A DNA stretch of 53,634 nt from Jiangella anatolica (GTDB lineage Bacteria > Actinomycetota > Actinomycetes > Jiangellales > Jiangellaceae), in the NCBI RefSeq assembly GCF_003236295.1, contig NZ_POTW01000039.1, positions 1-53,634 of the forward strand, given 5' to 3'. The translations under genes and the position numbers were made by a program. The notes beneath the pieces were generated by a model. The model saw only the letters and a program-made list of their open reading frames with translations. It was not told the origin of the DNA and searched no databases. Shown in pieces: positions 18,759 to 53,044 of the stretch (position 1 is its first letter; every line of letters starts with the position of its first letter).

Positions 18759-18962
18759 ATGGCCCAGGGCACTGTGAAGTGGTTCAACGGCGAGAAGGGC
18801 TTCGGCTTCATCGAGCAGGACGGCGGCGGCGCCGACGTGTTCGTGCACTACAGCGCGATCGCCTCCAGCGGTTTCCGCACCCTCGAGGACAACGCCCGGG
18901 TCGAGTTCGACATCACCCAGGGCCAGAAGGGCCCCCAGGCCGAGAACGTCCGCACCATCTGA
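18759..18962 (+). CDS. cspA: Cold-shock protein, CspA family
   Basis: 67-residue single-strand nucleic-acid-binding beta-barrel. The sequence contains '[15 protein letters not shown]' with RNP-1 (KGFGFI) and RNP-2 (VFVHYSAI). Length and sequence are standard for the family. It acts as an RNA chaperone. It has its own leader and a hairpin downstream, so it is monocistronic. It is the last clearly host-like gene before the softer-composition region begins. Confidence 0.97.
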
Positions 18963-33860: not shown

Positions 33861-34475
<615 letters not shown>

Positions 34476-44366: not shown

Positions 44367-45823
44367 CGGCTCCGAACCCTCGGCGGGCGACGGCGACGGA
44401 CGGACATGTCGTTCGCGCGATCTCGGGCCTGCTGCTCGCCGTATTCGTCGTCTCGCTGTCCGGCACGGTCGTCGCCACGGCGCTGCCACGCATCATCGCC
44501 GAGCTTGGCGGCAGTCAGCGGCAGTACACCTGGGTGATTACGGCGACACTACTCACGATCACCGCCTCCGGACCCATTTGGGGCAAGCTCGCCGACCGTA
44601 CGAGCAGGAGAACGCTGGTCCAGCTGGCGTTCTCGATCTTCGCTCTCGGATCGGTCCTTGCCGGCTTCTCGCCGAACACCGAGATCCTCATCCTGTTCCG
44701 GGCGATCGAGGGCGTGGGAATGGGTGGATTGGGATCTCTGATCCCGACCGTCATCGCATCGTTGGTAGGTCCGCGTGAACGAGGCCGCTACGTGGGCTAT
44801 TTCGTCGCCGTCGGAGCCGTTGCGACGGTTGGCGGGCCGTTGGTCGGCGGCCTCATCGTCGACGTGCCACTCCTGGGGTGGCGGTGGTGCTTCTGGATCG
44901 TCGCACCGATCGCCGTGGCGGCGCTCGTGCTGCTTCGGCGAACGCCGGAGCTCGCGGTGGTGCACCCAGGCTCTCGCCTCGACTGGCTGGGCGTGTTTCT
45001 CGTGCCTAGCGCGATCTGCATCCTGATGATCTGGGTCACGTCGGCCGGTGCCGACTTCGGCTGGAAGTCGCGGATCAGCTTCGGCCTGGTTGCGGTCAGC
45101 GCGACGCTGATCGTCTGTGGTGTGCTGGTCGAGCGCCGGGCGGCTGATCCGCTCCTCCCGCTACGGCTGTTGCGCAATCGAACGATGCTGATCGCGCTCT
45201 TCGCCATCAGCGTCGCCGGCGCCTCCCTGGTGGTCTCGTCGGTGTTCCTCGCCCAGTACTTTCAGATCGCTCGTCGGTACTCGCCGACCGAGTCAGGACT
45301 GTTGCTGCTCCCCTTGCTCGCCGCAGTCGTCGGCGCGACGCTGGTGTGCGGCCGGCTCACGAGCCGCACCGGCCGTGTCAAGCCGCCTCTGGTGATCGGC
45401 GGAGCGCTGAGCGTGGTGGGCTTCGCACTTCTGGGCCGAGTCGACGACTCGACGTCGCTGGAGTCGTTGTGTCTGAGCATGACGATCCTCGGGCTCGGGA
45501 TCGGGTCTTGCGTGCCAAACCTGGTCGTGGTGGCGCAGAATCTCCTCGACTACCCAGATCTCGGCGCCGGCACGTCCCTGCTCACGTTCTTTCAGTCGTT
45601 TGGGGGAGCAGCCGGCATCTCGGTTCTGGGCGCGGTCTTCGCGTCGCAGGTAGCGGGTTGGAAATCCGACCATGCCGGGATCGAACACGCCTACGGTGCT
45701 GCATCCGGCCGTGTCTTCCTCATCTGCGCCGCCCTCGCCGGTGCCGCGTTCGTCGCCGTCCTCTTCGTGCGGGAGTCGCCCGTCACCGCCGAAACCGTCA
45801 GGCCGGGACGGTGTCGCCCATGA
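44363..45823 (+). CDS. MFS transporter, DHA2 (14-TM, EmrB/QacA) type
   Basis: 486-residue exporter with about 14 hydrophobic segments. Motif A-like 'GKLADRTSRRTLV', motif C-like 'GAVATVGGPLVGGLIVD' and the start 'LLLAVFVVSLSGTVVATALPRI' identify the DHA2 group. The TTG at 44363 overlaps the rmlA stop (TTGA), so it is translationally coupled. Its 3' end overlaps the convergent radical SAM gene by 26 bases. Probable exporter of the glycoside made by the preceding genes, or a resistance pump. Confidence 0.9.
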   Translation: MTAPNPRRATATDGHVVRAISGLLLAVFVVSLSGTVVATALPRIIAELGGSQRQYTWVITATLLTITASGPIWGKLADRTSRRTLVQLAFSIFALGSVLAGFSPNTEILILFRAIEGVGMGGLGSLIPTVIASLVGPRERGRYVGYFVAVGAVATVGGPLVGGLIVDVPLLGWRWCFWIVAPIAVAALVLLRRTPELAVVHPGSRLDWLGVFLVPSAICILMIWVTSAGADFGWKSRISFGLVAVSATLIVCGVLVERRAADPLLPLRLLRNRTMLIALFAISVAGASLVVSSVFLAQYFQIARRYSPTESGLLLLPLLAAVVGATLVCGRLTSRTGRVKPPLVIGGALSVVGFALLGRVDDSTSLESLCLSMTILGLGIGSCVPNLVVVAQNLLDYPDLGAGTSLLTFFQSFGGAAGISVLGAVFASQVAGWKSDHAGIEHAYGAASGRVFLICAALAGAAFVAVLFVRESPVTAETVRPGRCRP

Positions 45824-47456
45824 TCTCGGTGCGTAGCGGCCAGTGCGACCAGAATGCGCCCTTGTAGCCGAGTTCGGTGAGCCGCAGCAGGAACGGGTTG
45901 TCGGCGTAGTTGTTGTCCTCCGGCGACAGGCCGGGGGCGGTCGGCAGCATCACCCGCGGCCGGTCCTGCGGCGGCACCCACTCCCACAGCAGCTCCAGGC
46001 TGGTCAGCCAGCGGTCGCCCGGATGAGTGTTCCGGGCGCCCTCCGGCAGCGCGGGGGAGAAGTAGTACACCGGCCGGAACCCGCCCATCGGGTCGAACAT
46101 GAACTGCCGCTCGTACTCCACCCGGCTGTGGCACTGGTCCAGGGTCGAGAGCAGGATCGGCGCGGTCGCCGTGTTGGACTGGACGCCGGCGACGGCGCGG
46201 GTGCCGCCGCTGCGGGCGGCGAGGTCGCGGCCCAGCGGTGAGTACGGGAACGCGCGGATGCCCAGCGTGAACCCGACCACGGTCGCGTCCAGCGCGAGCA
46301 GCCCGTCGACGCAGTCCTTCATGGTCTCGGCGGTCTCGCCGGGCATGCCCAGCAGCGCCTCGACCATCGTCAGCATGCCGTACTGCTTGGCCAGCTCGCA
46401 CAGCCGCCGCACGTCGGGATAGCCGTAGAAGCGGGTGCCGCGGCCGGTCACCTTCCACCCGTCGAGCACGTCGTCGCGGACGTGGTCGGGCGCGACGTTG
46501 ATGCCCGCGCAGCCGGCCTCGGCCAGCAGCTCGGCATACTCCTCGTCGAACGGGGCCGGCTGCACGTAGATCCACAGCCGCAGGTCGTGCAGCGGCGAGT
46601 GCGGGTCGGCGCGTTTGCGCCGGACGATCTCGCGCAGCACCGCCTTCGAGTGCGCGATGTTGAGGTTGAACTCGCTGTCGGTCGTGTGCAGGTCGCGCAC
46701 GCCCTGTGCGGTGAGCAGCTCCATCTCGTCGACGACGGCGGCCTCGGCCCGGCGGGCGAACCGGTTGCCCTTGGCGTCGGGCTCGACGCAGTGCGCGCAG
46801 GCGAACGTGCAGCCGTTCTTCGTCAGGATGTTGCCCAGCCCGCCACGACGGTAGTAGGCGAGGTTGTCGACCTTGTTCCGCACGCCGGAGCGCCGCGTGT
46901 ACGGCGTCGACCGGTTCACCAGCTCCACGCGGCCGTCGGCCAGCAGCTGGCTGCGGTGCGGGATCTGCCGGACGTCGCCGCGGCCGAGGTTGATGATCAG
47001 CCCGCCGACCTTGGCCGGCGAGTCGTTCTCGGCCAGCCTGCGCGCGAGCTCGACCATCGTCGTCTCGCCCGGGCCCTTGACGCCGTAGTCGATGCCGAAC
47101 CAGTCCACCAGCGCGAACGGCATCGACGAGAAGCCGACGCCGCCGCCGACGATCGGCGCCGTCGTCCACCGCTGGATCTCGCGCACGATCTCACGGTGCG
47201 AGTCGAGGAAGACGCGCTGCTCCTGCGGGTAGATCGTGTCGGTGTTGCGGAACGTGACGCCCACCAGCAGCGGGCGGTGCTCGCCGAAGTAGGCCGCGAC
47301 GGCGTGCCGCCAGCGGTCCCGGATCAGCGTCAGGTCCAGGACGTCCACCTCGAAGCCGGCCGCCTCCAGCGACGTCGTGAGGATGTCGAGCGCATATGGA
47401 GTGATGGGCGGGTGAACCAGGTTCGGGTTCACCAGTGTCACGAGCGGGCGATTCAC
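45798..47456 (-). CDS. Cobalamin-binding radical SAM protein, TsrM-like (tryptophan 2-C-methyltransferase type)
   Basis: 552-residue enzyme. Residues ~1-150 form a B12-binding Rossmann-like domain ('TLVNPNLVHPPITPYALDIL', 'LLVGVTFRNTDTIYPQEQ') without the DxHxxG cobalt-ligand motif. An Arg at residue 70 falls where, from memory, TsrM has an Arg facing the cobalt. The radical SAM cluster motif is CTFACAHC (CxxxCxxC), with 'GYPDVRRLCELAKQYGMLTMVEALLGMPGE' downstream. TsrM makes 2-methyltryptophan; the adjacent tryptophanase gene supports an indole substrate. The GTG at 47456 is chosen for the GGGGAGG site four bases upstream. Other B12-radical SAM methylases remain possible. Confidence 0.8.
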   Translation of the reverse strand: MNRPLVTLVNPNLVHPPITPYALDILTTSLEAAGFEVDVLDLTLIRDRWRHAVAAYFGEHRPLLVGVTFRNTDTIYPQEQRVFLDSHREIVREIQRWTTAPIVGGGVGFSSMPFALVDWFGIDYGVKGPGETTMVELARRLAENDSPAKVGGLIINLGRGDVRQIPHRSQLLADGRVELVNRSTPYTRRSGVRNKVDNLAYYRRGGLGNILTKNGCTFACAHCVEPDAKGNRFARRAEAAVVDEMELLTAQGVRDLHTTDSEFNLNIAHSKAVLREIVRRKRADPHSPLHDLRLWIYVQPAPFDEEYAELLAEAGCAGINVAPDHVRDDVLDGWKVTGRGTRFYGYPDVRRLCELAKQYGMLTMVEALLGMPGETAETMKDCVDGLLALDATVVGFTLGIRAFPYSPLGRDLAARSGGTRAVAGVQSNTATAPILLSTLDQCHSRVEYERQFMFDPMGGFRPVYYFSPALPEGARNTHPGDRWLTSLELLWEWVPPQDRPRVMLPTAPGLSPEDNNYADNPFLLRLTELGYKGAFWSHWPLRTEIMGDTVPA

Positions 47457-47460
47457 CACG

Positions 47461-47518
47461 CCTCCCCGGGGATGGAGTCGATCATCCAGCGTTACAGGCG
47501 TGCTGGGAGCTGGGGAGG
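47461..47518 (-). promoter_or_regulatory. Possible SD-sequestering leader of the radical SAM gene
   Basis: On the minus strand, CCTCCCC (47512-47518) can pair with the ribosome site GGGGAGG (47461-47467) of the radical SAM gene, across 44 bases. It could act in translational control if transcription starts upstream of 47518. Confidence 0.3.
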
Positions 47519-47553
47519 GGGCCGCTTTTGCGCCGGAGTGCTGACCTGGTCGT

Positions 47554-47571
47554 TTTCGCAAAGTGGACAGG
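47554..47571 (+). promoter_or_regulatory. Shared 18-bp motif, copy 1
   Basis: TTTCGCAAAGTGGACAGG, 60 bases before the small XRE gene start and about 98 bases before the divergent radical SAM start. It matches the copy at 52723-52740 (other strand) at 17 of 18 positions. GGACAG (47565-47570) and CTGTCC (47584-47589) also form an inverted repeat. Confidence 0.65.
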
Positions 47572-47631
47572 ATCGTTCGCATTCTGTCCTGGTATGTCGA
47601 TCGAGCGGTCAGCACGCTCGGAAGCGTGAAG

Positions 47632-47934
47632 ATGATCGTCCGCACCGCAGGCGTGACATCGGCAGACCAGACCGTCGGCTCGGTGATCCGGCAGGCCCGC
47701 AGCCGACTCGGCTACAGCCAATACGACATCGCCGACGAGCTGGCCCGGATCTCCGGCAACGGCTCGCTCACCCGCGACGAGGTCGCCCGCTGGGAACGCG
47801 GCAAGCGCATCCCCGGCCCGTATTGGCGGCAGTGGATCAGTGAGGTGCTCGGGGTGGGCTCGTCGGATCTGGAGCGGGCCGCCCGGGTAGCGCGGCGGGC
47901 CCGCCGGGCTCGCCGGGTGCCAGCACAGCGGTGA
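47632..47934 (+). CDS. Small XRE-type HTH protein (DNA-binding domain only)
   Basis: About 100 residues, nearly all HTH: 'SVIRQARSRLGYSQYDIADELA' then 'LTRDEVARWERGKRIPGPYWRQWI'. The same signature opens the 486-residue regulator at 51153-52613, so this is an HTH-only relative. The ATG at 47632 is taken rather than an upstream GTG/ATG (47563) because the shared motif lies at the latter. Its last 98 bases overlap the end of the convergent tryptophanase gene. Possible repressor or competitor at the shared motif. Confidence 0.72.
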   Translation: MIVRTAGVTSADQTVGSVIRQARSRLGYSQYDIADELARISGNGSLTRDEVARWERGKRIPGPYWRQWISEVLGVGSSDLERAARVARRARRARRVPAQR

Positions 47935-49270
47935 AGTGCCGCAGCGGACCCGTCTGTTCGACGACGCGGTAGCCGGGAATCTCCGTCGCCTTCGCGACGA
48001 CCTCCGCCGCGGTCTCGACGACGTACTCCAGGTGGCTCTTCGTGTAGACGCGGCGCGGCAGCGCGAACCGGACCAGCTCACGCGGCGCCGGCAGGTCGTC
48101 GCCGCCGTCCGGGTCGGGCCTGCCGAACACCAGCGTGCCCAGCTCGGACACCCGCACCGCGCCGGCCAGGTACAGCTCGTTGGCCAGCGCGGTCGCCGGC
48201 AGCCGGTGCGGTGGGACGTGCGGCAGCAGCGCCGCGGCGTCGACGTACACGGCGTGGCAGCCGGTCGGCTGCAGCACCGGCAGCCCGGCGTCGGCCAGCC
48301 GGTCGCCGAACCACCGCGTGGTCTGCGCGCGGTAGCGCAGGTAGTCCGGGTCGGTGACCTCCAGCAGGCCCTGCGCCAGCGCCTCCAGGTCGCGCCCGGC
48401 CAGCCCGCCGTACGTCGGGAACCCCTCGACGGCGATCAGCTGGTCGCGGCAGCGGCGGGCCAGGTCGGCGTCGCGCAGCGCGATCAGCCCGCCGATGTTG
48501 GCGATGCCGTCCTTCTTCAGGCTCGCCCAGCAGCCGTCGGCCAGCGCGAACACCTCGCGGGCGACGTCGCGGGGCGGCCGGCCGGCCTGCGCGGGGTCGC
48601 GTTCGGTGATGAGGTAGGCGTTCTCGGCGAAGCGGGACGCGTCCAGCAGCAGCGTCACGCCGTGCCGGTCGCACAGCTCGCGGACGGCGACGACGTTGCC
48701 CAGCGACACCGGCTGCCCGCCGCCGGCGTTGTTCGTCACCGTCACCACGACACACCGCACGCTGCCGCCGTCCGGGCCCGTGAGCAGGTCCCGCAGCGCC
48801 GGGACCGACAGGTCGCCGCCGAACGCCACCGGCCCGACGGCCTCGGCCGGCAGGTCGACGGCGCGCGCGCCGGCCGCCTCGACGCTGGCGCGCGTCGTGT
48901 CGAAGTGCGTGTTCGAGACGGAGAGGTCGCCCGGGCGGAGCAGCCGGCCGAGCAGGATCCGCTCCGCGGCCCGGCCCTGGTGCACCGGGATCACCTCGGC
49001 GTACCCGGTCAGCTCGCGCACCACCTGCTCGAACCGCTGGTAGGAACGGGCGCCGGCGTAGGACTCGTCGCCCACCATCAGGGCCGCCCATTGCGCAGCC
49101 GACATCGCGCTGGTGCCGGAGTCGGTGAGCAGGTCGATGGTGATCGCCGCGGCCGGCACCCGGAACAGGTTGAACCCGGCGTCTTGCAGCGCGCGCCGGC
49201 GCTGCGCCCGGCTGGGGAACGGTATCGGCTCGACGGCCTTGATGCGGAACGGCTCCATGAACGCGGGCAC
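47837..49270 (-). CDS. Tryptophanase / beta-eliminating lyase family (TnaA-like)
   Basis: 477-residue PLP enzyme of the tryptophanase/tyrosine phenol-lyase family. Co-linear with E. coli TnaA: 'IDLLTDSGTSAMSAAQWAALM', 'YAGARSYQRFEQVV', 'IPVHQGRAAERIL', 'VTNNAGGGQPVSLGNV', 'DASRFAENAYLI', the PLP-lysine block 'SLKKDGIANIGG', 'EGFPTYGGLAGRDLEAL' and 'LRHFTAVL'. The final ~24 residues extend beyond the TnaA end. The GTG at 49270 is chosen for GGGAG seven bases upstream. It would cleave tryptophan (or a methylated tryptophan) to the indole, pyruvate and ammonia. Confidence 0.9.
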   Translation of the reverse strand: MPAFMEPFRIKAVEPIPFPSRAQRRRALQDAGFNLFRVPAAAITIDLLTDSGTSAMSAAQWAALMVGDESYAGARSYQRFEQVVRELTGYAEVIPVHQGRAAERILLGRLLRPGDLSVSNTHFDTTRASVEAAGARAVDLPAEAVGPVAFGGDLSVPALRDLLTGPDGGSVRCVVVTVTNNAGGGQPVSLGNVVAVRELCDRHGVTLLLDASRFAENAYLITERDPAQAGRPPRDVAREVFALADGCWASLKKDGIANIGGLIALRDADLARRCRDQLIAVEGFPTYGGLAGRDLEALAQGLLEVTDPDYLRYRAQTTRWFGDRLADAGLPVLQPTGCHAVYVDAAALLPHVPPHRLPATALANELYLAGAVRVSELGTLVFGRPDPDGGDDLPAPRELVRFALPRRVYTKSHLEYVVETAAEVVAKATEIPGYRVVEQTGPLRHFTAVLAPGEPGGPAALPGRPAPDPTSPPRAPH

Positions 49271-49360
49271 CGGCGCACTCCCTCCGTCGGACTCGTCACG
49301 TCCGAGTCTGTGCGTCCGCCGCCGCGCCCGGCAGGGGCCAGTTCCCCTTCCGGCCGAGAC

Positions 49361-49387
49361 TGTGACATCGAGGTCCGGATTGTGACA
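49361..49387. promoter_or_regulatory. Direct repeats TGTGACA, candidate AraC operator
   Basis: TGTGACA at 49361-49367 and 49381-49387, exactly 20 bases apart, in the divergent region between the tryptophanase (start 49270) and AraC gene (49504). AraC-family activators typically bind direct repeats about two helical turns apart. Confidence 0.55.
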
Positions 49388-49503
49388 CTCCATCGGGTGA
49401 CGTGCCCGTGGGCGAGGACTAGCCTTCGAATTGATCTTGCCGGATCGCGTAGTAGTACGGTGTGGTGTGCCGCGGCGGGAGCGCGCCCGCAGGGAGAACC
49501 ACC

Positions 49504-50484
49504 ATGACGACTGTTCCGCTCGACAGGTATCCGTTGTTCGAGTCACACGAGCTCGATCACGCACGTGACGTGGTCGGGCGAGTCTTCACGCCGCACCGTC
49601 TGGACCTGCTCGGCCGGTCCACCGAGATCAACGCGCGCATGAACACCCGCCGCATCGACCGCATCGCGGCGAACTACATCACCTACGGCGGCGACGTGCT
49701 CATCGAGCCGGGTGAGCTGGAGTCGTTCTTCGTCGTGCAGGTGCCGCTGTCCGGGCGCGGCCTCGTCCTCTACGGCGGCGAGGAGCTGCTGTCCACGGCC
49801 GACATGGCGTCGGTGATCTCGCCGACGGTCGCGCTGACGCAGCGCTGGTCGGCCGACTGCGCACAGCTGATCCTGCGCGTCGAGCGACCGGCGCTGGAGG
49901 CGCACCTGCGCCGGCTGATCGAGGCGCCGCTGGCCCAGCCGATCCGCTTCGACCTCGGCATGGACGTCACCACCGGCGCCGGCCGCAGCTGGCTCTCGGT
50001 GTTCCGGATGCTGGTCGAGGAGCTGGACCGCGTGGACCACAGCATGATCAACAAGCACGCGGTCGCGGTCGAGTACGAGGACTGGCTGATGACCGGCCTG
50101 CTGCTGGCCCAGCCGAACAACTACTCCACGATGCTCGACAGGACCAGCCGCTCGCCGGTCCCGCACCGCGCCGTCACGATCGCGCGCGAGCTGATCGAGA
50201 GCCATCCGGAGTGGCGGCACACCGTGACCAGCCTGGCCAAGGAGGCGCAGGTCGGCGTCCGGGCGTTGCAGATGGCGTTCCGTCACCACCTGGGCACGAC
50301 ACCGCGGGCGTACCTCACCGACGTGCGCATGCGCCGCGCTCACGATGAGCTGCTCGCGTCGCAACGCGACATGACCACGGTGAACAAGGTCGTCGCCAAG
50401 TGGGGTCTCGGCCATCCCGGCCGGTTCGCCCAGGCCTACTACGCGCGCTTCGGCGAACTGCCGTCGCAGACCCTGGCGCGGTGA
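49504..50484 (+). CDS. AraC family transcriptional regulator (AraC_binding_2 + HTH_18)
   Basis: 326-residue regulator. The N-terminal ~215 residues form an AraC_binding_2 sensor domain ('YPLFESHELDHARDVVGRVF', 'LSTADMASVISPT', 'LILRVERPALEAHLRRL'). The C-terminal ~100 residues are the AraC DNA-binding domain ('TSLAKEAQVGVRALQMAFRHHLGTTPRAYL', 'WGLGHPGRFAQAYYARFGELPSQTLAR'). Divergent from the tryptophanase gene and probably its activator. ATG at 49504 follows AGGGAG. Confidence 0.93.
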   Translation: MTTVPLDRYPLFESHELDHARDVVGRVFTPHRLDLLGRSTEINARMNTRRIDRIAANYITYGGDVLIEPGELESFFVVQVPLSGRGLVLYGGEELLSTADMASVISPTVALTQRWSADCAQLILRVERPALEAHLRRLIEAPLAQPIRFDLGMDVTTGAGRSWLSVFRMLVEELDRVDHSMINKHAVAVEYEDWLMTGLLLAQPNNYSTMLDRTSRSPVPHRAVTIARELIESHPEWRHTVTSLAKEAQVGVRALQMAFRHHLGTTPRAYLTDVRMRRAHDELLASQRDMTTVNKVVAKWGLGHPGRFAQAYYARFGELPSQTLAR

Positions 50485-50513
50485 GCGGGCCGCGCCATGA
50501 CGCCGGCGCGGGT

Positions 50514-51149
50514 ATGAACGCGCCACCGATCGACCGGTTCCCGGTCCTCCGCTCCACCGACGTCGAGCACACCCGCGAGGTCGTCTTCCGGTTCGTGGCC
50601 CGGCATCCGGTCGAGCTGGTGCACCCCGAGGCCGGCGTCGACGCCTACATCAACGGCCGGCGGCTGGACCGCGTCGGAGCCGCCTACCTCGCGTTCGGCG
50701 CCGAGGCCCGCACCCACCCCGGCCAGCTGGACTTCTACGTGCTCCAGGTGGTGCTCGCCGGGACGTACGCGGTGTGGCTGGACGGCCACGAGGTGCGGGC
50801 CCAGCCGGGCGCGGCGATCGTGCTGTCGCCCGGCCCCGACGTGCGCACCTGGTGGTCCGCCGACTGCGCGATGCTGTGCTTCCGGGTGAGCGCGGCGGAC
50901 TACCGCGACCATCTGGCCGGCCTGCTCCGCCGTCCGCTCGACGAGGAACTGCGGTTCGAGCCGGCGATGGACCTGCTCACCGGGCCCGGCCGCGACCTCA
51001 ACCTGGGCATCGTCCGGCCGCTCACCCAACGGCTCAACCAGGTGTTCGGGCTCGTCGGCAACTCCGTCATGATCCGCCAGCTGGAGGACACCCTGCTGAC
51101 GGGGTTGCTGCGGGCCCAGCCCAACACCTACTCCGCGCAGCTGCGCTGA
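50514..51149 (+). CDS. AraC_binding_2 sensor-only protein (no HTH)
   Basis: 211-residue paralogue of the preceding regulator's sensor domain: 'IDRFPVLRSTDVEHTREVVF' aligns with 'LDRYPLFESHELDHARDVVG', and both run to 'AQPNxYS'. It ends where the upstream protein continues into its DNA-binding domain; the stop TGA at 51147 is unambiguous. A GTG at 50481 overlapping the previous stop would add 11 residues; ATG at 50514 is preferred because it aligns with the start of the paralogue. Likely co-transcribed. It may dimerise with or titrate the full-length regulator. Confidence 0.75.
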   Translation: MNAPPIDRFPVLRSTDVEHTREVVFRFVARHPVELVHPEAGVDAYINGRRLDRVGAAYLAFGAEARTHPGQLDFYVLQVVLAGTYAVWLDGHEVRAQPGAAIVLSPGPDVRTWWSADCAMLCFRVSAADYRDHLAGLLRRPLDEELRFEPAMDLLTGPGRDLNLGIVRPLTQRLNQVFGLVGNSVMIRQLEDTLLTGLLRAQPNTYSAQLR

Positions 51150-51152
51150 GGG

Positions 51153-52613
51153 TCAGCCGAAGAGGTCGAGTTGCGGGGCGAGCGTGCGCGCCTCCTGGAT
51201 CAGGGACCGGACGGCGGGCAGCGCGGCCTCGACGTCGGCGACGTTGACGCGATTGTCGCGGCCGACCGGGCGGCTCAGGCTGAGCTGGCGCTGACGCAGC
51301 AGCTCCAGGTGGCCGAACCGGTCGCCGAACTGGGCGATCACGCACCGCCCGACGATCTCGGCATCCGCGCCCGGCGCCGGGCGCAGCCCCTGCGCCGCGA
51401 GCAGGCCGCAGCCGATCAGCTGCGCCGCCTGGCAGACCAGCACGAACGCCGAGCCCGCCGATGCCGCCATGACGTCCTCCGCTGCCGTCAGGTGGTGTGC
51501 GGCGAGGTCGAGGTAGGGACGAGCGTCGGCGGCCGGGCCGCTGAACAGCTCCAGCCGATTGCCGGCCAGCAGTTCGGCGACCACGGCCGCGCCCTCGGGC
51601 CAGCCGCCGGTCCCGCTGGGCGCGCTGTCGGCGGCGGCCGGCGGCGCGACGTGGACGACCGGCAGGCTGCCGCGCTGCCGCGGGATCCGGACCCGCTCCA
51701 GTTGCCGCAGCCGCGGCGTCGTCCGGTTGACGGCGAGCGGGCCGTGCCCGTTGGGCGGCCGGCGGGCGCCGTTCTCCGGCCGTCCGATCAGCGCGAACGC
51801 CACCCGGCGGTGCAGCCGTCGCTCCGCCCGGCGGGCCGCGGCGACCAGCTCCGGCCGGGCCGGCGTGTGGTGCTCGTCCGGTGTGAGCCGCACCTGGATG
51901 ACGTCCGGCTCCGGCCCGACGACGCCGGTGAACCGCTCCGCCCAGGTGCCGGTGAGCGCGATCCGCGCGACGCCGGAGACGCGGCCGAACTCTTCGCCGA
52001 CGATCTGTGGCACGCCGTACGTGCCGCGGATCAGCTCGGTGAGCGGGCCGATGGTGGCGCGGTCGGTGGCCGCCCGCATCAGCCGGATGGCGCCGTCGTT
52101 GCGCCTGATCAGGATGCCCGCGTCCTCCAGCAGCTTGGCCTCCTTGGAGACCGACGCGAGCGAGCCGCCCGCGTGCTCGGCCAGCTCGGTCAGGCTGAAC
52201 GCGCGGTCCGGGTTCAGCAGGGTGGCCGCGAGGATGCCGGCCTGGACGCGGGACCGGAACACCGGCAGCAGCGCCGGCGTCCCCTGCGGACGGCGCGCCG
52301 TCCCGGTCTCCGGCGGCGGGGTGAGCGCGGCCGCGTGGCCCAGCCGGCTCTGCCGCCGGGCCGCGACCGCACCCGCGTCGAGCCGGTCGGCGGGGACCTC
52401 CAGGACCACCGCCAGCCACTGCCGCCACTCGCGTCGCGGCACCTGCCGGCCGCGCTCCCACCGGGCCACCCGGTCGCGGCCCATCGTGGGCTTGCCGGAG
52501 ACGGCGGCCAGCCGGTCCGCGAGTGTGTACTGGCTCATGCGCATCCGTATCCGGGCCGAGCGGATCATCTGGCCGATGGAGATATCGGGGTCGACGTGAG
52601 AATCCGGGCTCAT
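51153..52613 (-). CDS. XRE-type HTH regulator with winged-helix and degenerate nucleotidyltransferase-like domain
   Basis: 486-residue protein. Residues ~10-75 are an XRE-like HTH ('MIRSARIRMRMSQYTLADRLA', 'RVARWERGRQVPRREWRQWL'), closely related to the small protein at 47632. Residues ~120-180 form a winged helix ('SRVQAGILAATLLNPDRAFS', 'SVSKEAKLLEDAGILIRR'). Then comes 'ARIALTGTWAERFTGVVGPEPDV', which resembles the MNT nucleotidyltransferase motif but lacks the GS and DxD residues. The C-terminal ~130 residues are helical, HEPN-like without a clear RxxxxH. Probably a regulator for the tryptophan genes. ATG at 52613. Confidence 0.78.
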   Translation of the reverse strand: MSPDSHVDPDISIGQMIRSARIRMRMSQYTLADRLAAVSGKPTMGRDRVARWERGRQVPRREWRQWLAVVLEVPADRLDAGAVAARRQSRLGHAAALTPPPETGTARRPQGTPALLPVFRSRVQAGILAATLLNPDRAFSLTELAEHAGGSLASVSKEAKLLEDAGILIRRNDGAIRLMRAATDRATIGPLTELIRGTYGVPQIVGEEFGRVSGVARIALTGTWAERFTGVVGPEPDVIQVRLTPDEHHTPARPELVAAARRAERRLHRRVAFALIGRPENGARRPPNGHGPLAVNRTTPRLRQLERVRIPRQRGSLPVVHVAPPAAADSAPSGTGGWPEGAAVVAELLAGNRLELFSGPAADARPYLDLAAHHLTAAEDVMAASAGSAFVLVCQAAQLIGCGLLAAQGLRPAPGADAEIVGRCVIAQFGDRFGHLELLRQRQLSLSRPVGRDNRVNVADVEAALPAVRSLIQEARTLAPQLDLFG

Positions 52614-53044
52614 CTCTGCACACCTCTTCCGAGAAAGCCCGGCTTCCGGGGTTTTGTGCCGGGACTTCTGCTCGGAGATTACGGCGATTCGGCCCGGCGT
52701 GACGGTGCACTTCGCGACGTCGCCTGTCCACTTCGCGAAATACCAGGGTTCACCCGATGATGTTGACGTTTCACCTGGTCAGAGGGCATGCGGAGGTCGG
52801 AAAGTCGTCCCCTGCCCGATTGGTCGCGGCGCCGCCACGCTGACCTCAGCAATGCGACTGGGAGTGTTCGCCGGGAACGCGACTCGACGATCGGCTCGTC
52901 GGCTGTCGTGTCGATTTCGCGAAGGCCTGGCGATCATCGACGTGCACGAGGCGGGGACTGTTTTCGTCGCGGCGGCTTGCCGCGGACCAGGTGGTGCGTG
53001 CGGGCGACCCCACCGCGCTTTCGTGATCTCGGTACGGTGGGCCG
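52614..53044. other. Intergenic region with promoter for the XRE regulator
   Basis: 431 bases without a convincing gene. It contains the shared motif at 52705-52740; the rest shows nothing recognisable. An open frame on the plus strand (52654-53064) has no family signature. Confidence 0.4.
52705..52740 (-). promoter_or_regulatory. Shared 18-bp motif, copy 2, with a tandem half
   Basis: TTTCGCGAAGTGGACAGG (minus strand, 52723-52740) matches copy 1 at 17 of 18 positions. A second TCGCGAAGTGCAC (52705-52717) follows with a 21-base period relative to TCGCGAAGTGGAC. It lies 92-127 bases upstream of the start at 52613, consistent with an operator or promoter element. Confidence 0.65.

Follow-up and report, generated by a model that had tools for sequence, protein, structure and literature searches.

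Why would a bacterium keep a tryptophan methylase close to an enzyme that splits tryptophan? This question is raised by a 53,634-nucleotide stretch of DNA from the soil actinomycete Jiangella anatolica (contig NZ_POTW01000039.1, here called the window), in which the gene for a TsrM-type B12-binding radical S-adenosylmethionine (SAM) protein lies close to a tryptophanase gene. TsrM, which contributes a known step to thiostrepton biosynthesis, serves as the model of a non-radical 'radical SAM' methylase. With moderate confidence, we favor a stand-alone two-enzyme pathway at this locus that would lead from tryptophan through 2-methyltryptophan to 2-methylindole. The TsrM-type enzyme would form 2-methyl-L-tryptophan by passing a methyl group from S-adenosylmethionine, via methylcobalamin, to C2 of L-tryptophan. 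The tryptophanase, which depends on pyridoxal 5'-phosphate (PLP), would then release 2-methylindole, pyruvate, and ammonia by beta-elimination. The two enzyme genes are:

45798..47456, minus strand: TsrM-family protein of 552 amino acids (B12-binding radical SAM), predicted tryptophan 2-C-methyltransferase; TIGR04428 and KsTsrM matches
47837..49270, minus strand: tryptophanase of the TsrM-linked subfamily; NF009709 and PF01212 matches

The gene positions given by a first-pass annotation of the window were borne out, and both enzyme genes lie on the minus strand of the contig. The TsrM gene starts at a GTG at 47456 or 47459, preceded by GGGGAGG, and the tryptophanase gene starts at a GTG preceded by GGAGGGAG. 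The annotation had described the two as next to each other. They are adjacent in the wider sense only, because a small helix-turn-helix (HTH) gene sits between them; it is divergent from the methyltransferase gene and convergent with the tryptophanase gene, whose end its 3' end overlaps. The closest named relatives of the window are Jiangella species, with 90-92% protein identity.

The 45798-47456 protein is a member of the TsrM family. It is composed of a PF02310 B12-binding domain and a PF04055 radical SAM domain and scores 934.5 bits against TIGR04428, the tryptophan 2-C-methyltransferase model (cut-off 500; profile positions 1-556 of 558). The solved KsTsrM (PDB 6wte) is matched with 726 bits over residues 5-547, and 323 of 542 aligned residues are identical. 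Cys216, Cys220, and Cys223 form the CX3CX2C motif, Arg70 aligns with KsTsrM Arg69, and Glu262 aligns with KsTsrM Glu273. In KsTsrM, Arg69 is the residue under the cobalamin and Glu273 is the ligand of the unique iron (PMC8992657; papers are cited here for the available parts of their text). The three cysteines and the Glu273 equivalent are kept in all 80 aligned TsrM sequences, and the Arg69 equivalent is found in 79, the remaining one having a gap. The B12-binding radical SAM architecture, the CxxxCxxC motif, and the TsrM-like arginine at residue 70 noted in the first-pass annotation thus all hold, and the comparison with the family model that it had set beforehand places the protein within the TsrM family, every catalytic residue that was checked being intact. 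The formation of 2-methyltryptophan by TsrM is established (PMC4632189), and methylation at C2 of L-tryptophan is predicted for the window protein. Both enzymes are under purifying selection: in comparisons with seven relatives, the ratio of nonsynonymous to synonymous substitution (dN/dS) is 0.18-0.36 in TsrM and 0.14-0.30 in the tryptophanase.

A thiopeptide would be the familiar destination of a TsrM product. The absence of thiopeptide genes nearby had already been remarked, and it extends beyond the neighborhood: YcaO (PF02624, TIGR03604) has no match in the Jiangella genome, a 7.0-Mb draft of 256 contigs with 100% completeness. There is therefore no sign of a thiopeptide, and a thiopeptide origin was rejected. 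The YcaO search covered 33 of the genomes, a set without the genome of locus L067 (loci and genomes carry L and G numbers here), and none was found in four linked Amycolatopsis genomes (G175-G178).

The pairing of the two enzymes was followed across genomes. Among 22 searched Jiangellaceae genomes, 15 have a full-length TsrM, including 11 of 12 Jiangella. A tryptophanase with at least 70% identity is found in all 15 of these and in none of the other seven. In J. rhizosphaerae (G002; L031:6694-8640), only TsrM residues 369-552 are left, and residue 369 abuts DNA from the far side of the regulator genes. This deletion of ~7 kb (or misassembly) has taken the regulators, the tryptophanase, and TsrM residues 1-368 together. 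Outside Jiangellaceae, the tryptophanases of a 393-genome sample of the class have identities of no more than 59%, and TsrM is missing from all the genomes that carry them.

In Pseudonocardiaceae (249 genomes), tryptophanase matches fall into two groups, one of 69-76% identity and one of 60% or less. TsrM lies within 6 kb of 23 of the 28 loci of the first group, the TsrM-linked subfamily. The five non-adjacent loci are those of G450 (a 3870-base contig ends), G501 (a fragment), G152 (TsrM on another contig), and G456 and G515 (no TsrM). A partial TsrM occurs in three of the 23 pairs that are adjacent: G522, G532 (at C1:1841597), and G564, the last of which also has a partial tryptophanase. The other tryptophanases of TsrM-bearing Pseudonocardiaceae genomes are beside TsrM at 0 of 21 loci, which indicates that a distinct subfamily is kept for the TsrM partner. 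By genome, the subfamily is present in 27, TsrM in 37, and both in 23 (Fisher p ~5e-19, uncorrected for shared descent).

Among named genomes, a full-length subfamily tryptophanase lies at most 5 kb from 24 of 69 TsrM loci (the TsrM match in L089 is in two pieces, and L092, L096, L098, and L100 are TsrM fragments). These 24 linked loci belong to Jiangella, Phytoactinopolyspora, Amycolatopsis, Actinophytocola, Haloechinothrix, Sciscionella, and Streptomyces tauricus. An AraC gene is beside the pair in 23 of them and the small HTH gene in 20. The order of the genes is not constant. In Jiangella, the enzyme genes run in the opposite direction to those for the AraC and small HTH proteins; most Amycolatopsis loci have the four genes co-oriented with the tryptophanase first; in A. 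jejuensis, TsrM precedes the tryptophanase; and in S. tauricus, the tryptophanase stop overlaps the GTG start of TsrM in GTGA. The conservation of the neighborhood, which the first-pass annotation had left to be looked for, is thus found in Jiangellaceae, Pseudonocardiaceae, and S. tauricus. Neither of two refuting outcomes named in that annotation, a radical SAM protein grouping with enzymes for another substrate or a pair kept nowhere else, came about. This recurrence across families argues that the adjacency is not chance, and linkage that survives a reshuffled gene order is the strongest sign that both enzymes act together.

Gene order also bears on the sequence of the two steps. The tryptophanase could instead free indole, which TsrM would then methylate at C2, the product again being 2-methylindole. 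The tryptophanase-first order in most Amycolatopsis loci and S. tauricus would suit this, as would the partial tolerance of TsrM for loss of the carboxyl group, which makes the reversed order possible with the same product. TsrM has shown less than 20% activity with 3-methylindole, the product lacking mass-spectral proof, and serotonin is methylated (PMC4632189). Tryptophan is nevertheless the better substrate, and its amino and carboxyl groups matter (PMC4632189). We regard the reversed order as highly improbable and the forward pathway, with methylation first, as the better account.

In a quick tree of 80 TsrM sequences, the tryptophanase-linked proteins other than that of S. tauricus form one branch (SH-like approximate likelihood ratio test, SH-aLRT, 84), apart from the thiopeptide and Kitasatospora types. 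The same branch holds members that have no adjoining tryptophanase, and these bear on an alternative in which 2-methyltryptophan, or a derivative made by unlinked genes, is the product. The tryptophanase would then clear or recycle excess 2-methyltryptophan or remove competing tryptophan. Some of the branch members without a tryptophanase, such as L041, L044, and L145, have an adjoining AraC gene, other TsrM clades lie in larger clusters, and the tryptophanase may still cleave tryptophan, since the Jiangella copies keep Asp137 and His463 (E. coli numbering). Set against this, in a clustering built on rough gene calls, the only gene family beyond the regulators seen near the pair in both Jiangellaceae and Pseudonocardiaceae is F29 (7 of 24 linked loci), and the close pairing and the S. 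tauricus overlap fit a forward pathway better than clearance. This alternative is therefore unlikely, and the two-step route to 2-methylindole is preferred to it.

The second step depends on the tryptophanase. It scores 563.6 bits with the tryptophanase subfamily model NF009709 (cut-off 285) and also matches PF01212. It stays under the tnaA equivalog cut-offs (NF053783, 430.6 vs 750; TIGR02617, 402.9 vs 825.8) and under that of the tyrosine phenol-lyase model TIGR02618 (425.7 vs 720.7), so family models alone leave its substrate unsettled. The fold does not decide either: the structural model (mean predicted local distance difference test, pLDDT, 85.4) is equally like solved tryptophan indole-lyases and tyrosine phenol-lyases (Z ~50). 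Its match to tryptophan indole-lyase 9bnj has a Z of 49.8, and it is 41% identical to the P. vulgaris tryptophan indole-lyase over the structural alignment. The pocket is more telling. The window enzyme keeps the PLP lysine (Lys270 equivalent) and has, in E. coli numbers, Asp137, His463, and Leu396, where tyrosine phenol-lyase has Thr, Phe, and Arg. These residues lean to the tryptophan type, not the tyrosine type, and cleavage of L-tryptophan to indole is predicted. Identity as a tyrosine phenol-lyase was rejected on the Asp at 137 and the Leu at 396.

In a maximum-likelihood tree of 71 sequences, the TsrM-linked subfamily, including the S. tauricus enzyme, is one clade (support 100/96), and the E. 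coli-type tryptophanases form a distant branch. Five members are drawn as unlinked in this tree. Two of these, L110 and L138, are so only because the locus or contig ends, and the genome of L110 has TsrM 3.5 kb further on (L035). The Lys270 and Asp137 equivalents are present in 42 of 42 subfamily members, and none has Arg at position 396. Cys occupies E. coli position 357 in all 42, and the residue there is Gly, Val, Ile, or Met in each of the 26 other tryptophanases compared; short duplicates (rows L001-L005), a second E. coli entry (L131), and the tyrosine-type L126, L130, and EHERB do not enter this count. The adjoining His358 (His343 in tyrosine phenol-lyase) is presumably near the active site. 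The His463 equivalent is found in 23 of the 42. In the P. vulgaris enzyme, one hydrogen bond links this Asp and His, another links the Asp to the indole NH, and kcat with tryptophan falls to 1.6% in the H458A variant (PMC11301627).

That the subfamily accepts 2-methyltryptophan finds some backing in oxindolyl-alanine, an analogue substituted at C2, which is bound by tryptophan indole-lyase as a quinonoid in the closed site (PMC11301627); the title of PDB 5w19 is consistent with this. Bulk at C2 need not be excluded from the active site, although the compound is an inhibitor.

A further alternative is mere co-regulation. The tryptophanase would supply indole for signaling or catabolism, and TsrM would make 2-methyltryptophan as an antimetabolite or as an inhibitor of the tryptophanase. 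The pocket residues are of the ordinary type, and oxindole analogues of tryptophan inhibit with a Ki of 1-10 uM (PMC11301627). Tryptophanases of other subfamilies in TsrM-bearing Pseudonocardiaceae, however, are never beside TsrM, and the His that is critical with tryptophan is replaced by Gln in many members of the linked one. Both points make mere co-regulation quite improbable beside a pathway that consumes 2-methyltryptophan.

Several observations weigh against the 2-methylindole pathway itself. The same Gln replaces the catalytic His463 in 19 of 42 subfamily members, all of them Pseudonocardiaceae (e.g., L045-L054, L057, L059, L089, L091, L138, L141, L144, and L148-L151). Judged by H458A, such enzymes may be poor on tryptophan, and they could be poor altogether. 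The window tryptophanase misses the tnaA cut-offs given above, and nothing on 2-methyltryptophan as a tryptophanase substrate was found in the open-access literature searched. The second-deepest branch of the subfamily (G456, G515) has Cys357 and no TsrM, so this residue alone is no mark of a 2-methyltryptophan enzyme; Cys357 may predate the partnership with TsrM. On the methylase side, L041, L044, L047, L056, L075, and L145 belong to the same TsrM branch and have no adjoining tryptophanase, and L049 has only a tryptophanase remnant. The co-occurrence statistics take no account of shared descent, and two of the seven Jiangellaceae genomes without the pair are incomplete (81% and 75%). Finally, YcaO is present in two linked genomes outside Jiangellaceae, those of S. 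tauricus (G153, one gene) and Haloechinothrix (G179, two genes more than 3 Mb from TsrM).

The two TsrM-free loci of G515 (L139:7325-9428) and G456 (L140:6973-9073) have a context of their own, with the subfamily tryptophanase directly downstream of a gene for a ~207-amino-acid protein, assigned to DUF6226 in L139.

How would the pair be switched on? The candidate regulatory features are:

47635..47934, plus strand: small XRE-type HTH protein, ~80 conserved residues; PF01381, 24.2 bits (cut-off 23)
49361..49387, minus strand: candidate operator TGTCACA-N13-TGTCACA, upstream of the tryptophanase in a divergent promoter shared with the AraC gene
49504..50484, plus strand: AndR-like AraC regulator; PF14525 sensor and HTH_18
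50514..51149, plus strand: HTH-less paralogue of the AraC regulator; PF14525 sensor only
51153..52613, minus strand: large XRE-type regulator of 486 amino acids; weak HTH matches only

The AraC protein, perhaps with its HTH-less paralogue and the small HTH protein, would switch the pair on in response to an inducer that is probably an aromatic compound. It is AndR-like only, since its score with NF041686, the model for the anthranilate dioxygenase regulator AndR, is 158.8 bits and does not reach the cut-off of 350. The first-pass annotation had counted four dedicated regulators. Of these four genes, one encodes a protein that lacks a DNA-binding domain, and wide conservation at linked loci is limited to the AraC and small HTH genes. 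Eight of the 11 Jiangella loci that have the module, the window among them, carry a separate HTH-less copy, the absence of the HTH in the other copies being judged from an alignment ending at residue 210 and from spacing. An HTH-less PF14525 protein is also encoded in A. jejuensis between TsrM and the tryptophanase (L039, 11640-12257). Such a sensor beside a full-length AraC protein is perhaps a partner or a decoy.

The N-terminal part of the large XRE protein resembles the small HTH protein. Copies at the same place are 58-91% identical in L017-L027, L029, and L030, but not L028; copies that are 55-56% identical occur in L046, L052, and L089. Often beside the large XRE gene is the F29 gene mentioned above, a CBS/nucleotidyltransferase gene (PF00483; with CBS in L038) found a few kb upstream of the pair in L034, L037, L038, L046, L052, L089, and L094.

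The candidate operator is the sole perfect match to TGTCACA-N13-TGTCACA in the 7.0-Mb genome, and two more sites have one mismatch. The repeat is kept with at most one mismatch in all 11 tryptophanase-bearing Jiangella genomes, and none was found at that threshold in Phytoactinopolyspora, Amycolatopsis, or the other non-Jiangella loci scanned. Direct half-sites two turns apart presumably suit an AraC protein. A half-site pair, CCAGGACA...TCCTGTCC, 20 bases apart, lies in the divergent promoter of the TsrM and small HTH genes (47457-47634), and most of the 11 Jiangella promoters have it. That promoter also holds a GGCCCC(C)T element resembling one ahead of the tryptophanase gene. The shared element, GGCCCCT in Jiangella alignments and ~70 bases before both enzyme genes, was set aside: the window has 3 matches to its consensus against 1.49 expected, which is not rarer than chance, and no claim is built on it.

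One possible purpose of this regulation is signaling. 2-Methylindole would be a 'capped' indole read back by the AraC protein and its HTH-less sensor, and the system would make a dedicated indole-type signal or defense volatile of rare actinomycetes. Under methanogenic conditions, a methyl group at C2 was reported to impede the hydroxylation and degradation of indole (PMC6221969). We hold this extension to be doubtful.

The genes on the other side of TsrM do not belong to the module. G+C content is 0.62-0.68 from ~18 to 46 kb and 0.70-0.77 on both sides. A cold-shock gene directly follows TsrM in 7 of 10 other Jiangella loci (L017, L018, L021, L022, L024, L025, and L026); among the same ten (L017-L026), one major facilitator superfamily (MFS) gene is in between in L019 and L023, and island genes are in between in L020. 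In the window, the cold-shock gene is at 18759-18962, 27 kb from TsrM. The genes at 39-46 kb (glycosyltransferases, RmlA, and efflux) are thus assigned to a ~27-kb insertion, and their membership of the module was rejected, the island being absent from most of the compared Jiangella loci. An MFS homologue is beside TsrM only in L019, L020, L023, and the window, and is not a constant part. The low-G+C island itself (~18963-45797, ~27 kb) carries RmlA, a glycosyltransferase, an F420-type LLM oxidoreductase, an EmrB-like efflux gene, and an integrase-core fragment at 33861-34184 (PF13683), and it is partly shared with G004 (L020). By sequence look only, it also holds a rhamnosidase-like gene, an ABC peptide transporter, and a second glycosyltransferase.

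TsrM relatives occur in other settings as well. Two non-actinobacterial ones with 53% identity, in metagenome-assembled genomes of Rhizobiales (L087:10028-13284) and Myxococcales (L088:5425-11641), lie near an EgtD-like N-methyltransferase (PF10017; 290 and 253.5 bits, respectively), and L087 also has an FGE/EgtB-like PF03781 protein. These contexts would suit a methylated, betaine-type tryptophan derivative. In Streptoalloteichus and Kutzneria, a tryptophan halogenase (PF04820) is near TsrM (L056:13880-15472, 550 bits; L058:15184-16752, 463 bits), and a third was seen by sequence look at L075:13697-15289. Halogenated 2-methyltryptophan products are possible at these three loci.

If the favored pathway is correct, it would give a free-standing role to a TsrM branch that is accompanied by a tryptophanase of its own and is represented in three actinomycete families. 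It would be a biological source of 2-methylindole, and it would point to a tryptophanase subfamily possibly adapted to substrates that carry a substituent at C2. In 2018, the 2-methylindole residue was described as previously found only in 2-methyltryptophan (PMC6017429). No report of TsrM paired with a tryptophanase was found in the open-access literature searched, subscription papers being outside the search, and in its available part PMC11015028 does not have this pairing as its subject. Free-standing use of TsrM with a dedicated tryptophanase would thus be a new variant built from known enzymes.

Compared with known systems, the window TsrM resembles the thiostrepton TsrM and KsTsrM in its full-length family match and in the positions of CX3CX2C, Arg, and Glu. 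It differs in its separate branch, in its position beside a tryptophanase and regulators, and in a genome free of YcaO matches. The loci of Amycolatopsis saalfeldensis (L097), Streptomyces sioyaensis (L083), and Micromonospora (L064, L090) share a TsrM homologue with Jiangella, and we take them to make thiopeptides. Unlike Jiangella, L097 (G173:C28) has two YcaO genes on the same contig, at most 11 kb from TsrM; for L064, L083, and L090, coordinates would fit a YcaO within ~16 kb if both genes lie on one contig. The group that includes KsTsrM (Kitasatospora, Actinacidiphila, Streptomyces, and Lentzea) has TsrM without a nearby subfamily tryptophanase. Its recurring cluster (L061-L099, e.g., L065:1113-12999) differs from the Jiangella locus in placing TsrM among class-I (M) tRNA-synthetase-like, ATP-grasp, and acyl-CoA-dehydrogenase-like genes, and is a candidate for the natural product of the solved enzyme's own clade. 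The tryptophanase, in turn, is like TnaA, the tryptophan indole-lyase of P. vulgaris and E. coli, in fold, PLP lysine, Asp137, and, in Jiangella, His463. It is set apart by its own clade, its Cys357, its 41% identity to the P. vulgaris enzyme, and its partner TsrM.

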